This document shows positions 19,181 to 21,649 of a DNA stretch of 64,000 bases, in pieces. Under the pieces are notes generated by a model. That model searched no databases and had not been told where the DNA came from. It worked only from the letters and a program-made list of their open reading frames with translations. The first letter of the stretch is position 1. Every line of letters begins with the position of its first letter. This stretch comes from Rhodopirellula sp. SM50 (GTDB lineage: Bacteria > Planctomycetota > Planctomycetia > Pirellulales > Pirellulaceae), in assembly GCF_002289565.1 (NCBI RefSeq), contig NZ_NTFY01000032.1:62001-126000 (forward strand), given 5' to 3'. The translations under genes and the position numbers were made by a program.

Positions 19181-21649
19181 TCAAGAAGACGAAGGTTGTG
19201 AATCACTCGATTGTTCATCGGTGCATCTCGCAATGACATCGAACAGAGTTTCTGGATCCACAGGCTTTGCGACATAAGCGTCCATTCCTGATTCAATGCA
19301 GCGTTCTTCATCTCCTGTCATCGCACTTGCTGTCATGGCGACGATCGGCGTGCGACGACGAGAGTCCAGTTCTTTTTGACGGATGATTCTCGTTGCTTCG
19401 TGACCATCCATTGTCGGCATCTGGATATCCATCAACACCAGATCAAACTCTTCGTTGTCGTATGCATCGACCGCTTCCACACCATCAGACGCCAAGACGA
19501 CTTCGTGACCTTCGCGCGTGAGTAGCCCGATCGCGACTTTCTGATTCACCAAACCGTCTTCGGCGAGCAGAATCCTAAGTTTGCGGACTTGTCGTTGCCT
19601 GTCCGCAGGTGAAGCCGTGTCCGACGACTGCTGGTCGCAAAGTTCGAAATTTGCAGTGAAATGAAATTTTGTTCCCAGGCCCGCTTCGCTTTCTACCCAG
19701 ATTCGACCGCCCATCAACTGAACGAGCTGCGACGAAATCGATAGCCCCAGCCCCGTGCCGCCAAAGCGTTTGGTCGTTGAAGCATCCGCCTGGCGAAACG
19801 ACTCAAAGATCTTTTGTTGGTGATCGGCGGGGATTCCGATTCCCGTGTCGCGAACGATGAAGTGCAGACAAACGGAATCGCGACAGATGGATTCGCGCGA
19901 CACGTCGACTTCGACTTCGCCCTGGTCGGTGAACTTGATCGCATTGCCAACCAAGTTCACGATGATTTGAGCGAGTCGCCCGGAGTCACCGACAATCGTT
20001 TCGGGAAGATCAGAATCGAAGCGACAAAAGACTCGAAGCCCTTTGGACAGGGCGCGATTCTCCAGCGATTTCACGGTCAGCCCGACACAGTCACGCAAAC
20101 GGAATGCTTGATGATCCAAGTCCAGCTTGCCCGCCTCGATTTTGGAAAAATCAAGAATGTCATTGAGGATTCGCAGCAACGATTCGGCCGAATGTTTGAC
20201 CATCATCAACTGTTCGCGCTGCTCGTCGGTGGTCTTGCTGCCGAGCAGCAGGTCCGTCATACCGATCACCCCGTTCATCGGCGTGCGTATCTCATGACTC
20301 ATCGTCGCCAAGAACTCACTCTTGGCGCGATTCGCGTTCTCTGCGATTTCCTGGGCCTCCCGCGCCTGCTCTTCCGCTCGCTTCCGTTCGGTAACGTCCC
20401 AAAACATGATTTGAATTCCGCTGAGTTTCCCGCGGGCATCATGGACCGGACCTTTATAGACCTCGAAGAATGCGCGCTGGCCGTCCGCGTCTTTGTACTC
20501 TTCGATATCGCGGAAACCCTTCTCCGTAGCGATCACACGATCATCGTCACTGTGGTACTTGTCTGCCAAATCTGGGGGAAAGAGTTCGTCGTCGGTCTTT
20601 CCGATCAACTCGTCGAGGGGCAATCCGATCGCGTCGCAATAGAGTTGGTTTGCAAACACAATTCTGCGATTTTTGTCCTTGCGGACCAAATACATCGGCA
20701 TGCTCTCCACGAGTGACAAATAGAGAGCTTCGGATCCCTGCCAAGACTTTGAGTCCCGGTATTCCTCCGGCGATTGGCCGAGGCAGTCATGAAAGGTCGC
20801 CGCCATGTGCTCGGCGTTTGAAAAGCCGGCCAGGTCGGCGACCACAGTTGTCGGCAAATCGGTCTCACTGAGCAATCGCTGCGCACGGCTGACGCGACAG
20901 TGATTGATTTCCTGAAGAACCGAGTGGCCTTTCGCTGCCAAAAATCGGCGATCGAGTGCGTCCTCCGAAATCGCGAGTTGCTCGGCGATATCGACGCCGC
21001 CAATCGGCGAATGGCTGCGCGTCCAAATGATCTCGACGGCTTCATCTACGATGGCATCTTGAGTCGTCGAAGGTGTTGCCGTGTCGTCCGGCGTCGACCT
21101 CAATTCCCCGTGAAGCAAATCGAGCGCGTCACCGACCAAGCTCATTCCCTGGAGAGCAAGAAGGACGGAGTTTTGTGCAGGATTCGTGTGAACTCGGTCG
21201 ACCAGGCTGTCAAAACGCTCAACAAACGACTCGCATTCACCCATCTGAATCAACGACGATTCGGGCCACAACCGATTGAAACGGCGTAGGCGATGCATCA
21301 GATCACCGCTCAATGAAATCCATCGTTCGTTCCAACCGGTTTCGAGATGGGGCCGATAACGGTGCCAACTGCCCGGCGTCAGAAAAAACAAGGCGTCGCC
21401 GTGGAACGCTCGCAACGGCATGGCCTGCGATTCAAACTCGCCTGCTCCTCCGGTGACTAAGACCAGTTGAAACTCAGGCAGCGTGCGGCCGTTTTCCCAG
21501 CTGAAATCATAAAGCTGCGGGTGGCCCGCTAACGGGTAAGGTTCACCAATCGCGGCGTTCGAGCGACCTGCACCGGTGAGATACGCGCCCCAACCGATCG
21601 CTTGCTCGTTGACTGGCAAGTAGTGGTGAAAAGCTTGTTGACCTGACAT
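19181..21649 (-). CDS. AraC-type sensor/HTH fused to PAS-histidine kinase-receiver
   Basis: An 822-residue single polypeptide with five recognisable parts in order. Residues about 10-140 are an AraC-like sugar-binding domain ('[20 protein letters not shown]', '[11 protein letters not shown]'). Residues about 200-300 are a double helix-turn-helix ('[19 protein letters not shown]', '[18 protein letters not shown]', 'GQSPEEYRD'). Residues about 310-425 are a PAS/PAC pair ending '[11 protein letters not shown]'. Then comes a HisKA domain with '[13 protein letters not shown]' (His452), a HATPase ('VGNAIKFT', 'DTGIGIP', '[11 protein letters not shown]'), and a receiver with '[13 protein letters not shown]' (Asp741). 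There is no membrane segment, so it is cytoplasmic. I start at ATG 21649; a GTG at 21694 would add 15 residues. DNA binding plus phosphotransfer in one protein is unusual; regulation of the flanking saccharolytic genes is a guess. Confidence 0.93.

Follow-up and report, generated by a model that had tools for sequence, protein, structure and literature searches.

A gene in the stretch of Rhodopirellula sp. SM50 DNA that was analysed (64,000 nucleotides; hereafter the window) joins a whole AraC-type regulator, N-terminally, to a PAS-histidine kinase-receiver chain, and this fusion architecture is real and kept in a second genus. The explanation that we tentatively favour, at a little under an even chance, is that a one-component, probably rhamnose-responsive regulator became the sensory part of a hybrid kinase that is soluble.

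All six Pfam domains of the window fusion lie above their cut-offs (60.0 bits against 33.6 in the case of HTH_18), and the hybrid-kinase set of His452, N and G boxes, Asp741 and Lys795 is complete on one chain; by this residue content the protein is a hybrid histidine kinase, with predicted phosphotransfer activity. Its open reading frame spans 19181-21694 on the reverse strand, with the ATG at 21649 as the preferred start and a GTG at 21694 as the upstream limit of the frame. Pfam and motif residues agree with a sequence-only reading that had assigned an AraC cupin, a double HTH, PAS, HisKA, HATPase and a receiver to a single frame. The absence of a membrane segment and of an Hpt domain, claimed by the same reading, is also borne out: no 19-residue segment exceeds a Kyte-Doolittle value of 1.46, so that no membrane span is expected, and a Pfam scan of the protein found no Hpt. 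Among the window's open reading frames of at least 80 aa, phmmer with the kinase family's own domains detected no further kinase, receiver, PAS or Hpt.

Bacteroidetes hybrid two-component systems (HTCS), which serve polysaccharide utilisation, have a membrane-anchored periplasmic sensor and carry their AraC HTH C-terminally, after the receiver. The fusion resembles them in uniting a kinase, a receiver and an AraC-type HTH within a single chain, but the order is the opposite, with AraC in front (HTH at 221-299, receiver at 693-806), as had been read from the sequence; moreover, it has its own cupin, no membrane span and nothing after the receiver, and Pfam and hydropathy found in it neither a periplasmic sensor domain nor an HTH behind the receiver.

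Table 1. Features of the fusion gene and its surroundings, in window coordinates.
Feature	Residues	Position	Strand	Remarks
Stand-alone AraC regulator, most like RhaS		8304..9164	-	146 bits, below RhaS cut-off of 288
L-rhamnose isomerase RhaA		9574..10884	+	Over cut-off; only copy found in window genome
Permease-like protein		11201..12634	+	Weak cytosine-permease match only
GH78 alpha-L-rhamnosidase		12885..16322	+	
Sulfatase		17182..19140	+	Convergent with fusion gene; start chosen by us, ORF opens 17092
AraC-PAS-histidine kinase-receiver fusion gene		19181..21649	-	822 aa plus stop
AraC_binding cupin core, predicted sugar sensor	55-122	21284..21487	-	Pfam
HTH_18, AraC double helix-turn-helix	221-299	20753..20989	-	Pfam
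Fusion junction	295-313	20711..20767	-	Predicted continuous helix 294-315
PAS_4	314-424	20378..20710	-	Pfam
HisKA with His452	442-507	20129..20326	-	Pfam
HATPase_c	554-667	19649..19990	-	Pfam
C-terminal receiver (Response_reg) with Asp741	693-806	19232..19573	-	Pfam
LamG-domain protein (Laminin_G_3; FecR-like by reading only)		22056..23837	-	Start chosen by us, ORF from 23870
ECF sigma factor, Rhodopirellula/Verrucomicrobium family		23834..24325	-	Start chosen by us, ORF from 24367
DUF1559 prepilin-like protein		24631..25875	+	Start chosen by us, ORF from 24391
3-keto-disaccharide hydrolase and GH78-type rhamnosidase domain protein		26304..28772	+	

An orthologue with equal domain order is encoded by Rubripirellula obstinata CECT 8602 (G203, L072:8761-11640; also L120). 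This 959-aa protein is 69-70% identical to the window fusion (69% across the first 300 residues) and has the junction YRDSK[ST]WQGSEA[LI]Y in common with it; its HTH_18 is also above cut-off, its catalytic domains are intact and a domain scan found no Hpt, whereas one extra receiver ahead of the last sets it apart from the window fusion. With the same order and junction present in a second genus, the architecture goes beyond chance, and the orthologue rules out an artefact of assembly or frame. Two checks that the sequence-only reading had suggested, a search for the domain order in other Planctomycetes and a look at whether the junction near residue 300 is conserved, came out in its favour: the in-frame join is not limited to this assembly, and a homologue of this order exists.

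In a predicted model of residues 1-430 (alignment A5; mean pLDDT 83.5), the HTH blocks have pLDDT values of 82-97 and one helix (294-315) runs across the junction, at a modest pLDDT of about 60 in its second half. Foldseek matched the cupin to the lactose sensor BgaR (TMt 0.66-0.73) and to AraC with arabinose (TMt 0.61); among whole AraC proteins it matched ToxT, CsvR and Rns, with low overall TM-scores (TMq 0.24-0.34).

Within the host family, the fusion was found in 2 of the 241 genomes searched (159 with completeness of 90% or more and contamination of 5% or less; at most nine candidates scored per genome), namely the window genome and R. obstinata. Near-full-length matches to the AraC part number 34 in this family, two in long frames (838 and 967 aa) and 32 in frames of 305-472 aa; in a sample of the order (396 genomes, at most five candidates scored per genome), the same two were, among the matches listed, alone in frames longer than 560 aa. 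The best 80 of 287 relatives in the GTDB collection, obtained with an alignment query, comprise one fused protein (R. obstinata), 78 stop-closed stand-alone genes and one gene (L125) that reaches its contig end. The 13 remaining genomes of the genus yielded no fusion, although G002 and G013 each have a stand-alone full-length subfamily member, and a phylum-wide search of 392 genomes, weak for divergent AraC parts and with R. obstinata evidently outside its sample, gave a junction-crossing match in G000 alone. When plasmids were searched with the AraC part (238 records), all of the matches listed had less than 60% identity, and a literature search across titles and abstract openings found no publication on an AraC-before-kinase protein. 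Two sets of apparent candidates were discarded by reading: HTH_18 frames of 748-760 aa in G012 and G003 consist of a periplasmic-binding-type and HTH protein behind a spurious-looking extension, with no kinase, and a Paraburkholderia plasmid match apparently crossing the junction has a relative (H22) that lacks an AraC HTH and is an ordinary kinase starting with a membrane part. Independent AraC-before-kinase fusions may exist in other phyla.

At the level of the locus, the near relative G001 (about 93% DNA identity on both sides) has 148 bp in place of window positions 19143-26280 (7.1 kb, with the fusion gene inside), and the more distant G012 has about 2 kb in place of 18684-26410; this patchy presence may reflect gain here, loss there, or transfer. 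Positions 8286-9472, which include the RhaS-like AraC gene, are likewise missing from G001 at the same place, so that a single rha locus differs by two regulators between close relatives. The region also contains a 153-bp interspersed repeat (21785-21937) with two more copies in the window (10919-11058 and 9275-9371), at least about 20 copies elsewhere in the window genome at 88-92% identity, and more in congeners. Its predicted fold is a long hairpin (z -4.84), and positions 16000-26500, the repeat at 21785-21937 included, gave no Rfam match at the gathering threshold; since the copy at 10919-11058 lies within 231 bp that are missing from G001 with a clean joint, the repeat looks like a mobile hairpin element.

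Phylogenies of the two halves, built from 43 PAS-kinase cores and 87 AraC parts, each place the two fusions as sisters (support 100/99 and 100/100, respectively). In the kinase tree, they sit in a ten-member clade (100/99) that they share with proteins of the Stieleria group and G213, and the three clade kinases that were scanned (G000:C103, L002 and L216) have the organization PAS-PAS-HisKA-HATPase-REC-REC-Hpt. Such kinases, the nearest kin of the fusion in the tree, are 53-56% identical to it from PAS to receiver, but have a first PAS where the fusion has AraC, as well as a second receiver and an Hpt; of the two fusions, the window copy is the one short of a receiver by this comparison. In the AraC tree, the fusions form a four-member clade (99/90) with two stand-alone proteins from G367, a genome of another family. 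Because both halves pair as sisters, the trees point to one fusion event between a stand-alone AraC regulator and a PAS-kinase of a local family; on this phylogenetic evidence the origin is single, the AraC regulator having apparently been put in place of the first PAS.

Silent sites between the two fusions are saturated or nearly so (pS 0.59-0.85), and dN is 0.12-0.28 in the cupin, HTH, PAS, kinase and receiver, 0.38 in residues 116-198 and 0.53 in helix 227-240, the highest value among the regions compared; near-saturated silent sites in a conserved protein indicate that the fusion is old and that both of its halves have been under long purifying selection. A chance, recent or decaying fusion without particular function, or an assembly artefact, could account for the patchy occurrence (2 of 241 family genomes) and for the segment missing from G001, but we consider it very improbable, given the same order in another genus, the near-saturated silent sites, the conservation of the protein and the intact catalytic domains of both fusions; the R. 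obstinata orthologue contradicts it directly.

The rhamnose genes that surround the fusion gene (Table 1) uphold sugar sensing as a likely role, as the sequence-only reading had proposed, and from this gene context the ligand is probably L-rhamnose. RhaA is a single-copy gene in all eight genomes examined. We considered 90 distinct subfamily AraC proteins, corresponding to 100 loci (the R. obstinata fusion counted, the window fusion left out), and scored neighbours within about 6.5 kb by phmmer (E 1e-15) against a single example of each gene type. Of these examples, RhaA and RhaT pass their NCBIfam cut-offs and RhaB, RhaD and the GH106 enzyme match below cut-off. A relative of RhaA, RhaB, RhaD or RhaT lies near 30 of the 90 genes, a rhamnosidase relative near 19 and a rhamnose-type gene of either sort near 42, with a recognised one missing for the other 48; homologues of the permease-like protein occur near 12. 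For a single-copy gene, we estimate from genome sizes that chance proximity is well below 1% in each case. Relatives of a 488-aa protein (L182:2788-4251 and similar), by reading possibly a sugar isomerase and with no NCBIfam match at E 1e-20, are found near 16 of the 90.

In R. obstinata, the fusion gene is followed by the gene of a 1505-aa protein (L072:11927-16444) with GH78 models in front and sulfatase models behind, beyond which lies a RhaS-like AraC that is 55% identical to that of the window; rhaA is on a contig other than that of the fusion. The gene order in Stieleria strain JC639, described as Stieleria mannarensis in PMC12254169, is RhaS-like AraC, stand-alone subfamily AraC (L044:7050-7991), rhaA and permease-like gene. 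Rhodopirellula sallentina L078:5263-10923 and window positions 19181-25875 share the ECF sigma factor, the LamG protein, the DUF1559 protein and a subfamily AraC, which in R. sallentina is stand-alone and located between ECF and DUF1559. Like the fusion, E. coli RhaS and RhaR belong to the AraC family and have rhamnose genes nearby; unlike it, they are unfused, and their cupin aligns poorly with that of the fusion. The RhaS equivalog is not among the five NCBIfam matches of the window fusion at E 1e-6, and its best curated match is the arabinose AraC, at 52.8 bits against a cut-off of 208; this result speaks against a rhamnose ligand, as do the 48 subfamily genes with no recognised rhamnose-type neighbour and the separate contig of rhaA in R. 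obstinata.

Stand-alone members of the AraC subfamily, such as the one beside rhaA in Stieleria JC639, are homologous to the N-terminal 300 aa of the fusion (27-47% identity in the family search) and have cupin motifs and HTH fold in common with it, but their chain ends after the HTH and 75 of 85 have an Arg at position 230. In an alignment that included 38 of the 85, positions 230 and 234 correspond to E. coli RhaS R202 and R206, two residues that Bhende and Egan are said to have found, in 1999, to contact DNA. Position 230 is Ser, Thr or Ala in the other ten stand-alone members and never acidic; it is Asp in the window fusion (20962-20960) and Val in the R. obstinata fusion. Both fusions deviate at three (78, 94 and 230) of the 62 columns that are at least 80% conserved among the 85, and R. 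obstinata alone deviates at position 234; of the 41 conserved columns up to residue 115, both fusions keep 39, and most HTH scaffold residues are likewise retained. The window's own RhaS-like AraC has Thr at the position aligned with 230, so that the Arg is dispensable in some such proteins, which slightly lowers our confidence that DNA binding was lost.

Comparison with 82 stand-alone pairs of 60-80% overall identity, which derive from 48 sequences and are hence non-independent, brings out an uneven divergence of the fusion pair. Its cupin identity of 0.82 equals or exceeds that of 79 pairs, and the identity of its first recognition helix (0.43, 6 of 14 residues; region 227-240, picked after the change at 230 had been noticed) is below that of all 82; in the second recognition helix it is 0.47, with six pairs as low, and in the HTH units 0.64 and 0.69, with 6 and 12 pairs as low. 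This pattern is as expected if the sugar sensor was kept while the DNA-reading helix was freed or retargeted, and suggests that DNA binding in its ancestral form has probably been altered or lost. The first recognition helix, which is without the common Arg and differs between the fusions beside a tightly held cupin, speaks against the proposal of the sequence-only reading that one protein could bind DNA, sense sugar and carry out phosphorelay by itself. Its idea of a self-contained phosphorelay is weakened too, since a C-terminal receiver with no Hpt found suggests that a separate partner takes the phosphate.

As we picture the sensor kinase, the cupin would be the cytoplasmic binding site of L-rhamnose or of a sugar derived from rhamnose, as the gene context suggests, and binding would alter a putative AraC dimer; the change would travel via the HTH and the continuous helix into the PAS domain and set the autophosphorylation of His452, from which phosphate would pass to Asp741 and on to another protein, an Hpt or a response regulator. 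In this scheme the HTH would be retained as a folded connector, its original operator binding altered or lost. A more specific form of this proposal, in which an intact L-rhamnose one-component regulator was captured as hybrid-kinase input with its sensor kept under strong selection and its DNA-reading helix given up, the HTH being a signal-transmitting linker and the protein a natural intermediate toward a two-component sensor, is possible but held with clear reserve.

DNA binding and phosphate relay by one molecule is less likely than the sensor-kinase interpretation. It could take the form of a dual function, with the HTH binding DNA at a new operator specificity and the kinase half signalling in parallel, which we regard as conceivable, if rather doubtful: the confidently modelled HTH, its score above cut-off in both fusions and the retention of most scaffold residues would agree with it, as would the fact that some stand-alone members, and also the RhaS-like regulator of the window, do without Arg230, and divergence of the recognition helix also fits an operator change; yet the recognition helices of the two fusions differ from each other, Arg230 is in neither, and one of them has an acidic residue unseen in the 85 stand-alone members. 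Alternatively, the protein could be an AraC factor whose DNA binding is controlled internally by its own kinase and receiver, as a reversed one-protein two-component system. The presence of a receiver, the failure to find an Hpt in either fusion and the lack of a detected partner kinase, receiver or Hpt in the window would suit such an arrangement, but it is unlikely, as no route by which a C-terminal receiver would act on an HTH at the other end of the chain is known to us, and as dN is highest, among the regions compared, in recognition helix 1.

Two-component systems are widely held to derive from one-component regulators, and to our knowledge there are few direct examples in which a kinase has absorbed an entire one-component protein. 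The view that one-component signalers arose first is cited in a passage of Galperin 2005 (PMC1183210). In the present case, relatives of both parent proteins still exist separately and the fusion is held in two genera; with most of the sequence change in the DNA-reading helix, it provides a concrete example of a DNA-binding domain possibly repurposed as a signal linker. The protein may also be a kinase that senses rhamnose in the cytoplasm of marine bacteria with rhamnosidases and sulfatases, and a direct gene switch may have become the sensor of a relay system in two marine planctomycetes.
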